Source: a bacterium (GTDB lineage: Bacteria; Myxococcota; UBA727; JAUIJE01). Taken from it: DNA of 64,000 bases. The notes beneath the pieces are model-generated. The model ran no database searches, was not told the DNA's origin, and saw nothing but the letters and a program-made list of their open reading frames with translations. This document shows, piece by piece, positions 19,175 through 29,656 of this stretch; the first letter of the stretch is position 1; each line of letters begins with the position of its first letter. Position numbers and translations under genes: made by a program. Location of the stretch: contig JAUIJE010000015.1 of NCBI GenBank assembly GCA_030431455.1, forward strand, positions 62,001 through 126,000. Direction: 5' to 3'.

Positions 19175-21235
19175 ATGTCGCATCCCGCCTTGCTGCGCCG
19201 TCTCCGCGCCGTTCCGCTGGCCTTGTTGGGGGCCGCGCTGGCCGCGTCCTGCGGGCCGTCGCGCCCCGAGATCGAGCGGTTCCACACCTCGGGCCGGGTA
19301 GACCCCCGGGACTTCCCCGACGTGCCCGCGGTGGTGCTGCTCGACCGCACCGAGCTGACGTTCACCTTCGCCGCGGAGATGGGCCGGCCCTACGCCGCGT
19401 CGCTGCACACCCGGCGCATCCAGATTCTCCGCCCCGAGGCGCTCGACCTCGCCCGGGTGATGATCCCCTTCGATGACCGCAGCCGCATTCTGTACGTCCA
19501 GGCCAAACGCATCACCCAAGACGGGGAGATGATCCCCATGGCCGACGACCGCGCGGTGGACATGATGCGGTTCAAAAGCGGCAGCGTCGCGGCCAAGCTC
19601 TACGACGACAAAGGCTACAAGCTGACCAAGGTCTCGGGGGTCGAGGTCGGGGACGTGATGGAGGTCAGCTACCTGCGGGTCTACCGCGACCCCCGCTGGG
19701 TCGATCCCATCCGGGTCTCGGGCCCGTTGCCGGTGGTGCGCGGCGAGGTCGTCGTCGACCACCCCGTGACCTACGACGTGGACTTCCGCGTCACCAAGCT
19801 CGGGCGCACCGCCGACGTCAAGCCCACCCGCATCCCCACCCGGGTCAAGGGCCCGGAGGACACCGGCGAAGGCGTGCGCGGCACCCGCCACGTGTTCCTG
19901 TTCGAGAACGAACGCGCGCTGTTCGACGAACCCTGGCAGCCCGAGGTGGCGGCCCTGGCCACCCAGGTCCACGTGCAGCTCAAGGGCTACACCCTGCAGA
20001 ACAAACGCTACGTGGGGTTCCGCAACTTCGACGACGTGGCCGCGTGGTACCGCGAGCTCACCGCGGGCAAGACCAGCCCCGACGGCACGGTGAGCTCGAC
20101 GGTGGTGGGCCTCGGGGGCAAGGGCGGCACCAAACGGCAAAAGCTCAAGCGGGTGCAGCAGTTCCTGCAAAACGAGATCAAAGATGTGCCCACTTTCCTC
20201 AACCTCGCCGCGCTCCCCGCCCGCGGTCCCGGCGACATCATCAACGCGAAGTTCGGCGACTCCAAAGACCAAGCCTCATTGGGCTTGGCCATGCTCGCGG
20301 AGATGGGCATCGGCGCGTTCCCCGTGCTCGTGTCCCGGGTGGGCACCTTCGCGGCGGTGCCCGACCTCGCCACCCCCGCGCCGTTCAATCACGTCATCCT
20401 CGCGGTCCCGTCCGGGGGTCGCTATTCATACATCGATCCCGCCACGCCATTTTTGCCCACCGGTCGTTTGCCCGGCGCGCTCCAAGGGCAGCGCGGGCTG
20501 CTCGTCACCCCCACCGGCGCGGAGTTGGTGGACCTGCCCGAGGACCCGCCCGGGGCCAACCGCTCGGTGCTCAACTACGACCTCGCGGTGAACAAAGAAG
20601 GCATCGCCTCGGGCCAGGTCCGGGTCGAGCTCGACGGCTTGTTCGCCCAGGCCGCCCGGGAGGCGCTGTTCTGGGACCCCGAGAATGCCACTGCACGGAT
20701 CGCGACCCTGCTCGCGCCCTCCGAGAAAAAGGGCATGGTGTGGCGGGAGGTGCTCGCGGTGGGGGGCGAAAAGGCCAAGGACCCGGACAAGACCCTCAAG
20801 CTTCAGGTGGTGCTCGCCCCCGGCGAGATCGGCCAGCAGCGAGGCCCGGGCTTCACCGTCACCGTCGAAAAAATCGTGGGCCGGCCGTTCCCGTTCTTGT
20901 GGCGCGAGGTTCGCTATACCCCTTTGGTGTTCCCCTTCCGGTTCGTGGAGAACACCCGGGTCACGCTGTCGATGCCCCCCACCTACGGCATCGACGCCTT
21001 GCCGCAGGAGGCGTCGCGCGAATCGAGCTACGTCAACTTCCGTTTCCGCTGGGCCATCGCCAACGGTGAGCTGTTCTACAACCGCGAGACCACCGTCGAC
21101 GTGCGCGAGCTGTTGGTCACCGACTACATCGACCTGCGCCGCCCGGTGGTCACGGTGTGGAGCGCGTTGGCCGAGCCCTTGGCGGTGGTCACCGGCGGCT
21201 TTCGCGGCGAGAACTACGGCAGCGATCCCTTCTAG
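19175..21235 (+). CDS. DUF3857/transglutaminase-like lipoprotein with Cys-to-Ser change
   Basis: ATG 19175 is favoured because AAGGA ends six bases upstream (ATG 19169 touches it). The 686-residue protein has a lipoprotein signal (ALAASC), an N-terminal DUF3857 domain (RRIQILRPEALDLARVMIPF, LTKVSGVEVGDVMEVSY), a central transglutaminase-like domain (about 330-440) and a C-terminal DUF3858-like beta domain. The family motif is YGDCKDQA with a nucleophilic Cys; here it is FGDSKDQA with Ser363. The partner His (FNHVIL) and Asp (YIDPAT) are kept. It is therefore probably not a normal transglutaminase or protease, and a binding or scaffolding role is likely. Envelope-localised. Confidence 0.85.
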   Translation: MSHPALLRRLRAVPLALLGAALAASCGPSRPEIERFHTSGRVDPRDFPDVPAVVLLDRTELTFTFAAEMGRPYAASLHTRRIQILRPEALDLARVMIPFDDRSRILYVQAKRITQDGEMIPMADDRAVDMMRFKSGSVAAKLYDDKGYKLTKVSGVEVGDVMEVSYLRVYRDPRWVDPIRVSGPLPVVRGEVVVDHPVTYDVDFRVTKLGRTADVKPTRIPTRVKGPEDTGEGVRGTRHVFLFENERALFDEPWQPEVAALATQVHVQLKGYTLQNKRYVGFRNFDDVAAWYRELTAGKTSPDGTVSSTVVGLGGKGGTKRQKLKRVQQFLQNEIKDVPTFLNLAALPARGPGDIINAKFGDSKDQASLGLAMLAEMGIGAFPVLVSRVGTFAAVPDLATPAPFNHVILAVPSGGRYSYIDPATPFLPTGRLPGALQGQRGLLVTPTGAELVDLPEDPPGANRSVLNYDLAVNKEGIASGQVRVELDGLFAQAAREALFWDPENATARIATLLAPSEKKGMVWREVLAVGGEKAKDPDKTLKLQVVLAPGEIGQQRGPGFTVTVEKIVGRPFPFLWREVRYTPLVFPFRFVENTRVTLSMPPTYGIDALPQEASRESSYVNFRFRWAIANGELFYNRETTVDVRELLVTDYIDLRRPVVTVWSALAEPLAVVTGGFRGENYGSDPF

Positions 21236-21581
21236 AGCGCGCCCCCGGCCGGGTCGAAACCCTGTGATTCCCCCGCGGGGGCGCGTTCGCCGCGGGCCCT
21301 CTGCCCTGGGTCAGCTTCCCCACCGGGTGAGGGAGATCGCCCGCTGCGGCCGCGCCGGGTCTCGCGCGACGCCGTGCGCGGCGGTGCAATGACATTGCCA
21401 ACGGCCCCGCGGCCCTCGGTCGGGCGCGCCGCGTCATGGTTCGGACGCGCCACAGATTGGTCCAAACGCGCCAGAAACCCTGAAAACCCGTTGAAATACA
21501 GCGGCCTAGGACGGGCGGCCGATGTTTGGGGCGGTGCGCGCCCGTACTTCCAGCCGGTACCGAGAGGCAACGGGAGGTCAC
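21236..21581. other. Intergenic region with phased 21-bp repeats
   Basis: No gene is visible in these 346 bases. They contain one full CAATG-N-CATTG palindrome (21387-21397) and three direct repeats in register. Everything else looks like ordinary upstream sequence of the amidase gene. Confidence 0.6.
21418..21480. repeat. Three direct repeats with 21-bp period, operator-like
   Basis: Windows 21418-21438, 21439-21459 and 21460-21480 share the pattern G-(K)-(T/C)-C-(G/A)-(G/A)-(G/A)-CGCGCC at identical offsets. A 21-bp period is two helical turns, so all three lie on the same face. They end about 100 bases before the amidase/L,D-transpeptidase start, a plausible position for cooperative binding of a regulator. 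Confidence 0.5.
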
Positions 21582-24578
21582 ATGCGGCGTTTTTGGGTCC
21601 TGGGTTTGTTGGTGTGGAGCATCGGGTGCGGGGACGAAGGCACCTTGGTGACCATCGAAGAAGAGTCCGGGCACGATCCGTCCTTTTTCGCCGAGGGCCC
21701 CGATCTCGCGTCGCTGCTGCAGGAGATGGACGGCCACGTGCTCGCCCCCCCGGTGGCCGCGCACGGGGTGCCGTTTGATCGGGTGAGCATCCTGTACGAC
21801 GCCAACACCGACGGCCGGCCGGAGATGCGGGTGTCGGACGACGGGGGCCGGACCTACGGAGCCTGGGCGGCGACCGAGACGGTGTTCGACGAGGAAGGCG
21901 CGTTTGTGGCCTTGGCCGATGCGCCCGAGGGCGGCACCCATGTCCAGGTGCGCTTCGATGACGCCGCCACCGTGACCGCCTTGTCGGTGGCGCTCTACGT
22001 CGTGCCCGAGGGCGCGCCCGGGCTCGACGAGCAAGAGGGGCTCGACCTCGCCGCCGACGGCGAGACCGAGGCCGCGCTCAGCTTCTCGGACTTTGTCGTC
22101 CCCGGTTCGGCCTGGGGTCGCCGCGCGGCCACCGCGACCTGCGGCGGCTTTCACAGCCCCAACAAGATCACCATCCACCACACCGCCACCCCCACCAACG
22201 ACTCCATCTCGGTGGAGGCCCGGTTGCGCCAGATCGAAAGCGAGATGGTGTTCGGCCGCAACTTCTGCGGCATGGGCTACCACTTCATCGTCGGCCAGAA
22301 CGGCAAGGTCTACGAGGGCCGGCCCCGGGCCCGGGTGGGGGCCCACGCCAAAGGGGCCAACACCAATAACATTGGGATCTCGTTCATGGGCAACTACCAA
22401 GGCGCGCTCCCCTCGGCCCAGATGCGCGAGGCCGGCGCCACCATCCTCAAGATGGTGGCCGACGAGTACGGCATCGCCCTCAACCGCCAAAAGGTGAAGG
22501 GACACCGCCAGGTGGGCGTCACCGTCACCGACTGCCCCGGTCACGCGATGTACGGACACCTGGAAGCGTTCATCGACATGGCCAAAAATGGCACTGGACC
22601 CATCGATGACGATCCCATCGGCGAACCCGATTGTTCTTCCGCCACCGTCGGCACCAACGTGCCGTCGGGCTCCACCGTGCAGGTGACCTACGCGGGGTGT
22701 GGGCTCGATACCTGCGGTTGGTACCTCTGCGCCGCGGGCTCCTGGAGCTGCACCGCCGGCCCCGGGGCCGAGGACGCGTTCCCCAATGCCGCCTGCGACA
22801 ACGGCCCCATCGACGACGATCCCATCGACGACGACGGCTGCGCCTACGACGCCTGCCCCACGCAGCTGCCCTTCGTCTACAACGACTCCACCACCGGCGG
22901 GGGCGACGACTTCGACAACTACAGCTGCGCCCCCGGCACCAATGAGTCTGGACCCGAGCGCGTGGTGCAGGTCACCGTGCCCAGCGATGGGACCTTGTCC
23001 GCCACCGTGACCGACGGCGCGGGGGTGGACATCGACGTGCACATCCTGTCCGCCCACTCCGCGGGGGCCTGCCTCGACCGGGACGACGCCTCGGCCGAAG
23101 CCGCGGTCACCGCGGGCGAGTACTTCGTGGTGTTCGACAGCTACGTCAAACAGTCCGGGGCGGTGCAAGACGGCGCGTTCAACGCGGTGATCGACTTCGT
23201 GCCCGAGGAGGACGACCCCGGCGACACCACCCCGGTGTGCGACGCCGACGCCTGCACCGACACCTTCCCGTTCAACTACACCGCCAGCACCGTGGGCGGC
23301 AGCGACGACTTCGACATGTACAACTGCGCGCCTGGGACCAATGAAGCGGGACCGGAGCGGGTGGTGCGGGCCACGTTGCCCTCCACCGGCGTCATCACCG
23401 CCACCCTCAACAGCGCGGTCAACCCCGACAACGTCGACATCGACGTGCACATCCTCACCAGCCTCGACGACAACGCCTGCGTGAGCCGCGGTCACTGGGA
23501 AGCCGCCGCCCACCTCGGGGCCGGGGACGTCTACATCGTGCTCGACAGCTGGGTGAGCGGGAGCGGCACCGTGTTCGCCGGGGACTTTGACCTCGACGTC
23601 ACCTTCACCCCCGATGTGCCCGACACCGAACCGCCCCCGATGGGGGAATGCCCCACCGGCGTCACCTGCCTCAACACCTTCCCCGCCGCCATCGAAGACA
23701 CCACCGTGGGCGGGCCGAGCGATCTCGACGGCTACGCCTGCGCCCCCGACCTCGACGAGAGCGGGCCGGAGAAGGTCGTGCGGGTGACGTTGGCCGAGCC
23801 CGGCTTCCTCGGGGTGAGCCTCACCGACGGCGCCGATGTCGACGTTGACGTGCACATCCTCACCGGGGCCACCCCCTCGACCTGCGTGGACCGCGGGAAT
23901 GTGCAAGCGGGCGCGTTCTTGCCCGCGGGGGACGCCTGGGTGGTGTTCGACTCGTTCGACAACATGGCCGGGCCCTTCGAGGCGGACATCACCGTGTCCA
24001 CCACCAGCACCCTCACCGGGCACGGGTTGAGCCAAGCCGCGGCGGAGGCCGCCCTGCACGCCTACGGCACCGCCTACGCGCAGGGCTACAGCGACCGGCC
24101 CGAGTACACCGTGGTCGACTTCTCGTTGCCCTCGGACCAGCGTCGGCTCTGGACCATCAACCTCGCCACCGGGCAGCTCTTGTTCCACGAGTTCGCCGCC
24201 CACGGCAAGAACAGCGGGGACCCCGCCGACATCCGCCGCTCCAACAGCTTCTCCAATGTCAATGGGTCAAACAAGTCGAGCTTGGGCCTGGTCAAGACCG
24301 CGGAGTCGTACTTCGGGAGCCACGGCTTGAGCCTTCGCCTCGACGGTCTCGAACCCGCCAACTCCAACGTGCGGCCCCGGGCCATCGTGGTCCACGGCGC
24401 CTGGTATGCCGAGCCGAGCTTTGTGCAACAAAATGGCTACACCGGCCGGAGCCTCGGCTGCCCCGCGGTGTCCGACGCCAACGTGGCGAGCTTGGTCAAC
24501 ACCATCAAAGAGGGCGCGCTGATGTTCGGCTACTACCCGGACGCCGACTACATGGCCACGTCGCCGTTCATGCCCTGA
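21582..24578 (+). CDS. Peptidoglycan amidase + PPC-like repeats + L,D-transpeptidase fusion lipoprotein
   Basis: GGGAGG precedes ATG 21582. The 998 residues begin with a lipoprotein signal (SIGC). Residues about 185-340 form an Amidase_2/PGRP domain with zinc ligands His199, His308 (KGHRQ) and Cys318 (TDCPG). Next come an Asp-rich linker, a Cys-rich segment and three copies of a 110-residue pre-peptidase-C-like module (FxYxxSTxGGxDDFDxYxCAPG ... VDIDVHIL). Residues about 840-998 match the YkuD_2-type L,D-transpeptidase fold with HGAWY (His938) and SLGCPAV (nucleophile Cys960). One protein could thus cut stem peptides from glycan and also make or cut L,D bonds. Confidence 0.85.
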   Translation: MRRFWVLGLLVWSIGCGDEGTLVTIEEESGHDPSFFAEGPDLASLLQEMDGHVLAPPVAAHGVPFDRVSILYDANTDGRPEMRVSDDGGRTYGAWAATETVFDEEGAFVALADAPEGGTHVQVRFDDAATVTALSVALYVVPEGAPGLDEQEGLDLAADGETEAALSFSDFVVPGSAWGRRAATATCGGFHSPNKITIHHTATPTNDSISVEARLRQIESEMVFGRNFCGMGYHFIVGQNGKVYEGRPRARVGAHAKGANTNNIGISFMGNYQGALPSAQMREAGATILKMVADEYGIALNRQKVKGHRQVGVTVTDCPGHAMYGHLEAFIDMAKNGTGPIDDDPIGEPDCSSATVGTNVPSGSTVQVTYAGCGLDTCGWYLCAAGSWSCTAGPGAEDAFPNAACDNGPIDDDPIDDDGCAYDACPTQLPFVYNDSTTGGGDDFDNYSCAPGTNESGPERVVQVTVPSDGTLSATVTDGAGVDIDVHILSAHSAGACLDRDDASAEAAVTAGEYFVVFDSYVKQSGAVQDGAFNAVIDFVPEEDDPGDTTPVCDADACTDTFPFNYTASTVGGSDDFDMYNCAPGTNEAGPERVVRATLPSTGVITATLNSAVNPDNVDIDVHILTSLDDNACVSRGHWEAAAHLGAGDVYIVLDSWVSGSGTVFAGDFDLDVTFTPDVPDTEPPPMGECPTGVTCLNTFPAAIEDTTVGGPSDLDGYACAPDLDESGPEKVVRVTLAEPGFLGVSLTDGADVDVDVHILTGATPSTCVDRGNVQAGAFLPAGDAWVVFDSFDNMAGPFEADITVSTTSTLTGHGLSQAAAEAALHAYGTAYAQGYSDRPEYTVVDFSLPSDQRRLWTINLATGQLLFHEFAAHGKNSGDPADIRRSNSFSNVNGSNKSSLGLVKTAESYFGSHGLSLRLDGLEPANSNVRPRAIVVHGAWYAEPSFVQQNGYTGRSLGCPAVSDANVASLVNTIKEGALMFGYYPDADYMATSPFMP

Positions 24579-24666: not shown

Positions 24667-27408
24667 TCAGCGTGCGTAGCGATCGGGGAGCATGTCCCGG
24701 AACAGCCGGTCCATGCATTCGTTGTCGCCCCGCTTTTGCGCCGCCCGCACCGCCTTGCCCACCTTGTCCGACTTGGCCCCGACGTCCCGGAGCTGCTCGA
24801 GCGCAATTTTGCGATCCAGGCAGGTGGGCCCCTCGGCGAGATTCTTCAGGGCATAGCCGGCGACGTCCACGGGGTCGTCTTCGCCGCGGGCCTTGAGGGC
24901 TGCATAGGCATTGATGCGCTCGTGGTACTCGCCGTGCTTGACCTTCTGGGCCAGCCGCGCGCTCACCGCGTCCCCCGGCCAGCGGGTGAGCATCTCTACC
25001 TCGAGCCCGACGTCCTTTTGGTTGATGCGTTCGATCACCACGCCGAGGGCGCGGTCGTCGACCTCGCCTTTGCCCAACGCCGCGCGGTAGGCATCGACCG
25101 CTTCGTCCACGTCCCCCAGCGCTTGCAGGGCGTGCCCCCGCCGCAGCCAATCGGCCCCGGCGCGATCCGGGGCGGGGATGGCGTCGACATCCTCGAGGAC
25201 CGCGGCCGCGTTGTCGGGGGACACCGATGGCCCCGCGGCCGGCGCGGGGGGCAAGGCCAACACCGCCACCACCACCACGAACAGGATCAAAAACGAAGCG
25301 GGCACCACCCACAACACCACCGGCACCGAGCGGCAGAACTCGAGCATCGGCCGCAGCCCCCGGGCGAGCACGTCCTCGACCCGGCGGAGGAACGGGAATG
25401 TCTCCAGGGTGTGGCGGGCGGTGGCCGAGTGCCGGATCGCGTCGTAGACGCGGAGGCTGCCCTCGAGGGCGCGCAAGGGCAGGTCGTAGAGCGCGGCGTC
25501 CGCGGCCTGGCCCAATGCCGATGAAGGCATCTGGTGCAGGCGCGTGTCGCGGGTGTTGTGGCTCGGGCCCTGCCGGGGATCTTGAAAGTGGGGCCCGGCG
25601 GTGATCAGGGTGTCCCCCCGTTCGAAGGGGTCCTCGTCGTCGGCGGCGGTGGGCCGCATCTGTGGACGGGGGGCTGGGATCGTGACCGGTGCAGGCACAT
25701 TGGCAGCGGCGGCGGCGGGATCGGTGGCGGCCTCATCGAAGTTGTCGGTGGCCTCGTCCCAGGCGGGTCGAGCGGCTTGGTCCGCCACCGTGGCCTCGGT
25801 GCCGAAGGGCGCGTCCTCATACGGGGGCTGGTCGAAGGGCGCCTCCTCGAAGGGGGCCTCCACCGGGGTCTGGGGGGGCGCGATCAGGGTGCGGTCGAGG
25901 TCGGCGTCGCCTTCTTCGTGGGTGCGGTCGGTGCGCACATCGAGCGCGGGGCGCACAATGGGGCTGGCCAGGGTGGGGTCGTTGTCGATGATGTCTTCGT
26001 CGGACAGCGACTGTGACAAGCTGGGGTCGGAGTCGAACAGGCCGGAGGCGGGGTCGAGGTCGTCCGCGGACACGGGGATGCGCGAATCCGCCGGCCGCAG
26101 ATCGACAAAGCCCGCGGACTCGTCGCTGAGCAGGCCCGGCGCGCTCTCCATCGCCCGGCTCCGCTCGTCGACCTGGCGCAGGGCCTCGAGGAGCAAGAAC
26201 TGCGTGGGTTGGCTGATGTTGATGTCTTCCGGCTCCTGGCCGTAATGAATCTGGAAGCTGCCGTCGCTGACCTGGGACAGCTCCACGAACGCCGGCTCGC
26301 CAAACAGCTTGCCCATCTCCGCGTACAGCACCTGCCCGGTCTTGATGTGCACCTGCCCCCGGGGCGCGCCCCCCATCGGCATCACGTCGAGTCGGGCGGT
26401 CTTTTTGCCGTACTCGAGCATCTGCACGATCTCGATCAGCCCCATGCGCTTGAGCGAGCCCATCACCCCGGTGGGCAACCCCACCTGGGCGGCTTCGCTG
26501 TCGGCAAACGCGTCGAAGGGCGAGGCCGGGCTCTTCTGCGTCGCTTGGGGCGCGATGCCGACCACCTCGTGGGCGAGCACGGTCTCGAGCTCGCCGAGCA
26601 GCTGTTGGTAGTTGGAGAACCGTTCGCGCGGGTCCTTGGCCATCATGCGGGACACGAACCCGTCGAGGGCGTCGGTCACGCTCGGCCGGCGCGCCTTCAC
26701 CGACGGAACCGGCTCGCGCAAATGCGCGGTGATCACGTCGATGGGCGTGTCCCGCACGTAGGGGGGCTGGCCGACCACGAGGGTGAACAGGGTCGCGCCC
26801 AGCGAGTAAATGTCACTGCGTACATCGTCCCCCACCGCCCGGGCCCGCTCGGGGGCCAAAAACGCGGGCGTGCCGGTGACCAGCCCCTCGCTGGTCACCA
26901 TGGCAGAACCGTCCTGGGGGCGGGCGAGCCCGAAATCGGTGAGCTTGGCCTGTCCGTCGACGACCACGATGTTGGCCGGCTTCACGTCGCGGTGCACGAT
27001 GTCGAGCCGGGCCGCCGCTTGCAGCCCGCGCGCGGCGTCGGCGGTGTATTTCAACGCCTCCGCCGGGGCCAGCGGCCGCCGGGTGCGCATCAGCCAGCTC
27101 TCGAGGTCCTCGCCCTCGAGGAACTCCATCACCAGGTAGGGCCGCCCGTCGAGCTCACCGAACCCGAAGATGCTCACCACGTGCGGCGAACTGATGCGGG
27201 CCATCATGCGGCCTTCCCGCACGAACCGCTCCCGCCGCACCGCGTCCGCCGACGCTTCCCGGTGCAGAATCTTGACCGCCACCAACCGGCCGAGGGCCTC
27301 ATCGCGGCAGGCGAACACCTCGCCGGCGCCGCCTTTGCCGATCATCTTCACCACGGTGTACGGCCCGATTTGCTCGGGAATGTAATCGGAGGCGCGGTCT
27401 CGGCTCAT
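24667..27408 (-). CDS. Membrane Ser/Thr protein kinase with PATAN (DUF4388) domain
   Basis: ATG 27408 gives 913 residues. The N-terminal kinase domain (about 14-285) has IGKGGAGEVF, the Lys in VAVKIL, HRDVKPANI and DFGLA, all needed for activity. Residues about 325-440 are a PATAN/DUF4388 domain (MGLIEIVQMLEYGKKTARL, GQVHIKTGQVLYAE), a module of Myxococcota and Deinococcus signalling proteins. A long acidic, low-complexity linker follows, then one membrane helix (about 695-720) and a C-terminal region of about 190 helical residues with TPR-like spacing. It lies 99 bases after a PP2C phosphatase gene on the same strand, so kinase and phosphatase probably form a reversible switch. Confidence 0.92.
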   Translation of the reverse strand: MSRDRASDYIPEQIGPYTVVKMIGKGGAGEVFACRDEALGRLVAVKILHREASADAVRRERFVREGRMMARISSPHVVSIFGFGELDGRPYLVMEFLEGEDLESWLMRTRRPLAPAEALKYTADAARGLQAAARLDIVHRDVKPANIVVVDGQAKLTDFGLARPQDGSAMVTSEGLVTGTPAFLAPERARAVGDDVRSDIYSLGATLFTLVVGQPPYVRDTPIDVITAHLREPVPSVKARRPSVTDALDGFVSRMMAKDPRERFSNYQQLLGELETVLAHEVVGIAPQATQKSPASPFDAFADSEAAQVGLPTGVMGSLKRMGLIEIVQMLEYGKKTARLDVMPMGGAPRGQVHIKTGQVLYAEMGKLFGEPAFVELSQVSDGSFQIHYGQEPEDINISQPTQFLLLEALRQVDERSRAMESAPGLLSDESAGFVDLRPADSRIPVSADDLDPASGLFDSDPSLSQSLSDEDIIDNDPTLASPIVRPALDVRTDRTHEEGDADLDRTLIAPPQTPVEAPFEEAPFDQPPYEDAPFGTEATVADQAARPAWDEATDNFDEAATDPAAAAANVPAPVTIPAPRPQMRPTAADDEDPFERGDTLITAGPHFQDPRQGPSHNTRDTRLHQMPSSALGQAADAALYDLPLRALEGSLRVYDAIRHSATARHTLETFPFLRRVEDVLARGLRPMLEFCRSVPVVLWVVPASFLILFVVVVAVLALPPAPAAGPSVSPDNAAAVLEDVDAIPAPDRAGADWLRRGHALQALGDVDEAVDAYRAALGKGEVDDRALGVVIERINQKDVGLEVEMLTRWPGDAVSARLAQKVKHGEYHERINAYAALKARGEDDPVDVAGYALKNLAEGPTCLDRKIALEQLRDVGAKSDKVGKAVRAAQKRGDNECMDRLFRDMLPDRYAR

Positions 27409-27507
27409 ACGGCCCCGCGCGGTCGTCGGCGATGGCGCAACACCCCCCAACGATAGCGCCCAGGGCCCTCAACTTGGAGCCCAAAACACCGTCTGGCGCA
27501 TCATCGG

Positions 27508-28723
<1,216 letters not shown>

Positions 28724-28734
<11 letters not shown>

Positions 28735-29656
28735 GAGCGGGCTCCGCGGCCGCGGCGATGTCCTCGGCTTCGTCCGCGTCCACCACCTCGTCCTCGTCGG
28801 CCCGGACCGCTTGGCGGAGGTCGTCGAGAGATCCGAAGTGGTCCTCGGGGTTTTCGAACCACGCCTTGAGGTTCTTGGACATCTTGGCCGCATGGGACCC
28901 GTCGAGGATGCGGTGATCGAACGTGGCAAACACACGCATTGTTTTGCGCACCTGAATCTCACCGTCTTCGACCACCGGCTCCTCGCGCACCGCCCCCATC
29001 GCCAACAACAGCGGCACCCGGCTGTAGGGCACCAGCGGCACGTAGGCCTCCTCGAGACCGAGGCTGCCGACGTTGGTCACCATCACCGAGCCGAAGGGGT
29101 CTTTGGGCATGCCCAAAAAGCGCAGGTCGAGGTTGAGGGTGAAGGACAGAAAGCCGATGGTGTTGAGGAAGATGTTCAAGAAGAAGTACGGAATGCTCTT
29201 GAACAGATTGCGGGTGCTCTCGAGCTCCTTGTCCTTGCCCGAGCGCACGTTGTCGACGGTGGCCTTGAACTCATCGTAAATGGTGAGCAGCGACTTTTGG
29301 TCTGCGTCGTGCACGGTGGCCCCGGAGAGATCGATCTCCCCGGTGTCTCGGTCCTTGAGCGCGACCTGGAAGAAGACCCCGATGCGGTCCCGCAGGTAGA
29401 TGCGGTTGAAGCGCAGGATGGCGTTGGCGTCGGGCATGTCGTGGAGCACCCCCGCCACCGCCCGGGCCATCATGTGGCTGAGGGTGAGATGACGACCGGT
29501 GATCTCCCGAAACGCGTCCCGGTAGGCGAGGGCCGCGTCCATGGACAGCTTGAGGCTGCCGTAGACGCTCGGGTCAAACGCCGTCTTCCAGGTGCCGATG
29601 GCGATGCGACGAAAACTCGAGAGCTGCGTTTTTTTGCGAAGTTCGAGGTTCGGCAT
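28724..29656 (-). CDS. E2-type 2-oxoacid dehydrogenase acyltransferase domain protein lacking lipoyl domains
   Basis: The 310-residue protein is the catalytic core of the dihydrolipoyl acyltransferase (CAT) fold: ITGRHLTLSHMMARAVAGVL, then MVTNVGSLGLEEAYVPLVP, ending with the catalytic FDHRILDG (His248, Asp252). No lipoyl or E1/E3-binding domain is present, and a hydrophobic insert (FFLNIFLNTIGFLSFTLNL) sits mid-protein, unlike normal E2. There is no E1 or E3 gene nearby. A stand-alone CoA-dependent acyltransferase of unknown substrate, perhaps membrane-associated, is the best reading. It lies between a small lipoprotein gene (9 bases) and the phosphatase gene (overlap), so it belongs to a signalling operon. 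Confidence 0.85.

Follow-up and report, generated by a model that had tools for sequence, protein, structure and literature searches.

The two-enzyme gene examined here raises a question about how bacteria organise work on their walls. Wall hydrolases and cross-linking enzymes need coordination, and the two kinds of activity normally reside on separate proteins. An open reading frame in the stretch of Myxococcota DNA analysed here (64,000 nucleotides in full, hereafter the window) encodes what appears to be both in one chain. The original prediction, made from the nucleotide sequence, placed a peptidoglycan amidase and a YkuD_2-like domain at opposite ends of a single lipoprotein, connected by three Asp-rich modules, and proposed that such a protein could remodel the wall or act on the walls of prey. 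In this study, the gene, its domains and its relatives were analysed with regard to the following: (i) whether the two enzymes truly share one native gene; and (ii) what the joined protein would do.

Results

Gene structure and genomic setting

The start of the gene was placed at the ATG at 21582 rather than at an in-frame ATG at 21522, because a GGGAGG element lies directly 5' of the former (Table 1). GC content at the three codon positions was 0.66/0.47/0.89, 0.64/0.51/0.93 and 0.57/0.50/0.93 in the successive thirds of the gene, a coding pattern throughout; GC3 was uniform along the frame, and both frame and codon bias were continuous. A Pfam scan of the protein returned Amidase_2 and YkuD_2 with the E-values listed in Table 1, and an NCBIfam scan gave chance-level matches only. 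The intact 998-codon frame, the ribosome-binding site, the codon GC and the Pfam matches therefore place the observation well beyond chance. A 1004-aa open reading frame on the reverse strand (21189-24203) covers nearly the whole gene; it was rejected on the strength of codon-position GC, which speaks for the forward frame, and it is probably a by-product of high GC.

The gene lies mid-contig (G000:C23:83582-86578) in a genome of 7.7 Mb assembled in 28 contigs. A DUF3857 protein is encoded upstream, and a Ser/Thr kinase and a PP2C phosphatase are encoded on the opposite strand; in this latter region (24667-28962 of the window, reverse strand), a kinase carrying DUF4388 adjoins a phosphatase carrying a cyclic-nucleotide-binding domain.

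Table 1. Features of the fusion gene and its product, in window positions
Feature	Positions	Strand	Details
Amidase/YkuD_2 fusion lipoprotein gene, complete CDS	21582..24578	+	998 aa plus stop, uninterrupted frame
Shine-Dalgarno-like GGGAGG	21572..21577	+	ends 4 nt 5' of ATG 21582
Predicted lipoprotein signal MRRFWVLGLLVWSIG-Cys16	21582..21629	+	PROSITE PS51257 matched
Conserved N-terminal domain, no Pfam name	21681..22076	+	residues about 34-165, about 130 aa
Amidase_2 / PGRP-type zinc amidase domain	22155..22541	+	residues 192-320, E 7.6e-22
His199, zinc ligand	22176..22178	+	sequence position
Tyr233, PGRP catalytic Tyr position	22278..22280	+	sequence GYHF
His308, zinc ligand	22503..22505	+	sequence position
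Thr316 and Cys318 (T-D-C), catalytic Thr and zinc-ligand Cys	22527..22535	+	sequence position
Acidic Cys-rich linker	22599..22835	+	residues about 340-418, six Cys, no Lys/Arg
PPC-like module 1	22839..23217	+	residues 420-545
PPC-like module 2	23238..23639	+	residues 553-686
PPC-like module 3	23643..24005	+	residues 688-808
YkuD_2 domain	24024..24533	+	residues 815-984, E 9e-53; model pLDDT 96.2
His938, YkuD_2 catalytic His	24393..24395	+	invariant in 46 homologues
Arg956-Ser957-Leu958-Gly959-Cys960, motif GRSxGCP, catalytic Cys960	24447..24461	+	sequence

Lipoprotein signal and N-terminal domain

Both enzyme domains are encoded in one intact reading frame, as originally predicted, and the lipoprotein part of that claim is softened. 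Cys16 fits the PROSITE pattern PS51257, but the stricter box [LVI][ASTVI][GAS]C is unmatched owing to Ser at -3; lipidation is likely rather than certain on this pattern-based prediction. Because the residue at +2 is Gly, the anchor would probably be held in the outer membrane. The following domain of about 130 residues has no Pfam match and also precedes the amidase in relatives, many of which align by BLAST from query residues 5-65 onward.

The amidase half

The Amidase_2 profile (PF01510) scored 78.5 bits against a curated cut-off of 26, and the best solved relative of the domain is PGRP3 (PDB 4z8i, E 3.2e-22). The zinc ligands named in the original prediction (His199, His308 and Cys318) are all in place. 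Tyr233 and Thr316, which by analogy with T7 lysozyme and the PGRPs we take to be the remaining catalytic positions of PGRP amidases, are consistent with the PGRP3 alignment, and the catalytic set is complete. The likeness to PGRP3 and T7 lysozyme lies in the domain match and in this set of His, Tyr, His, Thr and Cys; unlike those amidases, the present one follows an unnamed N-terminal domain on a predicted lipoprotein and is joined to a second enzyme. Judged by these residues, the amidase half should cleave the bond between N-acetylmuramic acid and L-alanine. Eight Amidase_2 domains are present in the genome. Among lipoproteins of the phylum that combine the N-terminal domain with Amidase_2 (L047, L049, L051-L055 and L057-L065), the tails are freely swapped, with SH3_3, B_lectin, CarboxypepD_reg, FG-GAP and GH114 all seen in this place.

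The YkuD_2 half

The YkuD_2 profile (PF13645) scored 178.6 bits against a cut-off of 27 and was covered from position 4 to 169 of 169, whereas the match to canonical YkuD (PF03734) reached 13.8 bits, under its cut-off of 23.4. His938 and Cys960, the two residues originally proposed as the active site, are in place and, together with Arg956, occupy columns invariant in 46 homologues; the loss of an active-site residue, which had been named as grounds for abandoning the fusion, is seen in neither half. The active site reads GRSLGCPA, with no His before Gly-Cys and no Arg at C+2, unlike the SHGC-x-R pattern; a characterised L,D-transpeptidase (LDT) has a motif of the SHGCIR type (PMC10434034). 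By its sequence, the C-terminal half belongs with YkuD_2 and not with canonical YkuD. The genome encodes YkuD_2 once and three PF03734 YkuD domains at other loci.

The model of the domain has the L,D-transpeptidase fold, aligning with 4xvo (Z 13.5, 109 residues, rmsd 2.0) and with Bacillus subtilis YkuD (1y7m, Z 13.3), and the list of fold matches includes DpaA and the cell-shape proteins of Bdellovibrio and Campylobacter. Sequence comparison with solved structures found no relative of YkuD_2. One crystallised chain aligns with the model at Z 10.7 (120 residues, rmsd 3.5) and is a possible precedent for the fusion; the published descriptions found for it treat its peptidoglycan-binding domain alone.

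YkuD_2 proteins of other phyla are 42-51% identical to the domain in the window and share the invariant His and the GRSxGCP motif. They are mostly 220-335 aa in length, and none examined holds an amidase. Lpg1697 of Legionella, for example, has 225 aa and a plain predicted signal peptide, unlike the fusion lipoprotein; its knock-out causes osmotic and carbenicillin sensitivity with muropeptides unchanged (PMC10117105). A literature search found no YkuD_2 member with proven chemistry. For this reason, and because the His-Gly-Cys-x-Arg pattern is lacking, the making or breaking of L,D cross-links or the attachment of proteins, originally proposed for this half, is plausible but unproven.

Linker and modules

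The three modules between the enzymes are related repeats, modules 2 and 3 being 49% and 43% identical to module 1, and describing them as Asp-rich is fair (Asp plus Glu 16-18%, against about 2% for Lys plus Arg). Their assignment as PPC-like held less firmly. No module matched the PPC family (PF04151) in a Pfam scan at E up to 1, and a model built from three sequences only (pLDDT 70) resembled the C-terminal domain of Tk-SP (Z 7.6) and the PPC domain of a Bacillus collagenase (Z 6.7), with the collagen-binding domains of ColH and ColG also among its best structural neighbours. Because all fold matches score below Z 8, PPC-like is a reasonable label without being an established one; the modules are predicted to form a beta-sandwich that is weakly PPC-like in fold.

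Copies of the module recur across the phylum on many further proteins, frequently preceded by a lipoprotein-like signal and a low-complexity linker; some of these proteins look chitinase-like, phosphoesterase-like or SGNH-like, as guessed from reading their sequences. Judged from this distribution, it is a phylum-wide general surface accessory unit that is not special to wall enzymes. The originally suggested role in positioning the two ends about the wall is therefore possible but not specific, since the modules decorate many unrelated surface enzymes. In the loci L153-L172 of the same phylum, the module spans about 115 aa with the motif DxDVHLLSxL...CLxRG and is found on varied surface proteins; one recurring partner there is a domain of roughly 180 aa (MPATGPxVLEAHLVTxEE...).

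Distribution of the domain pair

A PF13645 search detected YkuD_2 in 13 of the 195 genomes of the phylum, and a whole-protein search of the 195 found amidase and YkuD_2 matches within one open reading frame in the window alone. Outside the phylum, the domain was detected in Bacteroidota (144 of 395 genomes), Acidobacteriota (18 of 297) and Gammaproteobacteria (57 of 369). The fusion was not found by PF13645 search in these 1,061 genomes, a result that for Bacteroidota covers the best-scoring matches among the 395 genomes, all of those listed being at most 335 aa long. Eighty further YkuD_2 loci from named genomes held no amidase fusion, and a whole-protein scan of the contig set from which they came gave no match. 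Longer YkuD_2 frames (L070, L075 and L173-L179) were considered as fusions and rejected, because none contains an amidase and their extra length comes from a frame that runs on upstream or from a tail at the C-terminus. The pairing is apparently a rare, new combination of known domain families. The relatives recovered included none from the same genus or family, and the fusion was seen in no close relative that would indicate its upkeep by selection.

Separate halves in relatives

In G003 and G010, the closest genomes with both halves and members of the same order, the amidase and YkuD_2 genes lie apart on different contigs. Their predicted amidase lipoproteins (G003:C37, L047, and G010:C327, L049) share the N-terminal domain and Amidase_2 with the fusion protein at 40% and 38% identity and end in a bacterial SH3 domain (SH3_3), in place of which the fusion protein has the modules and YkuD_2. 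Their YkuD_2 proteins (G003:C77, L048, and G010:C860, L050) are predicted lipoproteins in which a PPC-like module precedes YkuD_2; they are 47% and 41% identical to the last module and YkuD_2 domain of the fusion protein, but have one module and no amidase, against its three modules and amidase. The first YkuD_2 tree had very long branches and was rebuilt without the longest of them; in the rebuilt tree, the YkuD_2 domain of the window groups with the two PPC-YkuD_2 proteins of the order (support 93/85). The amidase domain falls in a group that holds the order's amidases together with those of some further families in the phylum (81/81).

Because these order-mates carry the halves separately, the fusion probably arose within the lineage from existing amidase and PPC-YkuD_2 lipoprotein genes, with module duplication. 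Around the relatives' genes for either half, the neighbours seen in the window do not recur apart from kinase-like and scattered weak matches, and gene order therefore does not indicate which of the two loci received the other. Two other arrangements were observed in the order. A predicted lipoprotein of G004 (L056:7749-8933) has one PPC-like module and a YkuD_2 domain without the catalytic His and Cys, an apparent pseudo-enzyme of the PPC-YkuD_2 family. In G001 (L010 and L066), a short YkuD_2 fragment is separated by about 2 kb from a predicted lipoprotein that is PPC-like and has no YkuD_2 domain, which suggests that a PPC-YkuD_2 gene has decayed or split.

Discussion

The reading that we put forward as the most likely, and consider about evenly balanced between right and wrong, is that the gene is a native fusion encoding a two-enzyme surface lipoprotein. 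Sitting on the outer-membrane side, this protein would remodel or repair the wall of its own cell, cutting at one end and joining at the other. A lipid anchor, probably in the outer membrane, would hold the N-terminal PGRP-type zinc amidase, which would strip stem peptides by cutting the bond between N-acetylmuramic acid and L-alanine. The Cys-rich linker and the three PPC-like modules in a row would carry the C-terminal YkuD_2 cysteine enzyme, which should form an acyl-enzyme with a stem peptide and then transfer it to another stem or to an amine, thereby re-linking or substituting stems within reach of the stalk. The intact frame, the domain identities, the catalytic residues and the separate halves in relatives are shown; we infer lipidation, location, both activities, their cooperation and the target wall. 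The more specific proposal, that the removal of stem peptides and transpeptidation of the L,D type are coupled on one lipoprotein over a distance set by the three-module stalk, is tentative, and we regard it as rather doubtful.

A different chemistry for the YkuD_2 half would change the picture. It may be mainly a hydrolase, either an L,D-carboxypeptidase or a protein-detaching enzyme in the manner of DpaA, and the fusion would then be a dual wall-degrading enzyme. The motif without Arg at C+2 speaks for this, as DpaA, a member of the YkuD family that detaches Lpp, is described as lacking an arginine conserved in L,D-transpeptidases (PMC12729407), and DpaA and the cell-shape proteins of Bdellovibrio and Campylobacter share the YkuD fold. 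On the other hand, the invariant Arg956 of YkuD_2 lies near the Cys and could substitute, and the sensitivities of the lpg1697 knock-out (PMC10117105) resemble those that follow loss of a cross-linking enzyme. We consider a mainly hydrolytic role unlikely.

Attachment of proteins offers another use for a joining enzyme at this site, in which YkuD_2 would tie peptidoglycan to outer-membrane proteins, or to the very lipoprotein that bears it, while the attachment site would be released or renewed by the amidase. In several Gram-negatives, lipoproteins and beta-barrel proteins of the outer membrane are joined to the wall by LDTs (PMC12729407, PMC11527210). An LDT that is lipid-anchored and carried on a long stalk of modules would be well placed to do so, and the YkuD_2 proteins of the same order are, from their sequences, also predicted lipoproteins. 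However, the analysis found neither an acceptor motif at a C-terminus nor a partner protein, nor any experiment that links YkuD_2 to protein attachment; such tethering seems quite unlikely.

The walls of prey or competitors, raised in the original prediction, are a still less probable target for a secreted or displayed attack, which we judge improbable. The phylum's amidase family bears diverse tails of a secreted type (B_lectin, GH114, CarboxypepD_reg and FG-GAP) and the modules decorate many extracellular enzymes, but peptide joining provides no obvious route to killing, and none of the neighbouring genes was identified as serving secretion, predation or immunity; nothing in the analysis speaks for predation.

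Finally, an assembly chimera of an amidase gene and a YkuD_2 gene, against which the original prediction had warned, is highly improbable. The halves are indeed separate genes in the relatives examined, which fits a lineage-specific fusion, and repeat modules sit at the join. However, the modules have diverged in DNA (best identity about 72%, over 138 nt), the genome has no other copy that is nearly identical and no repeat of a length or similarity that could mislead assembly, and related amidases lack any PPC module that could serve for recombination; frame and codon bias are continuous and the gene lies mid-contig, with no obvious sign of misassembly.

A native fusion that remodels the cell's own wall would bear on wall biology in several ways. 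L,D cross-links inhibit lytic transglycosylases (PMC11390936), and an enzyme of such a kind could therefore affect autolysis. The fusion also draws attention to YkuD_2, a domain that is common (144 of the 395 Bacteroidota genomes sampled) and for which no solved sequence relative or demonstrated chemistry was found. Where an amidase and an enzyme of the L,D-transpeptidase fold are naturally fused, the fusion shows which two activities the lineage found useful to couple, and it provides a construct whose halves can be taken apart to test this coupling. If coupling over the three-module stalk proves true, gene fusion in one lineage would have produced a machine that edits the wall by itself.
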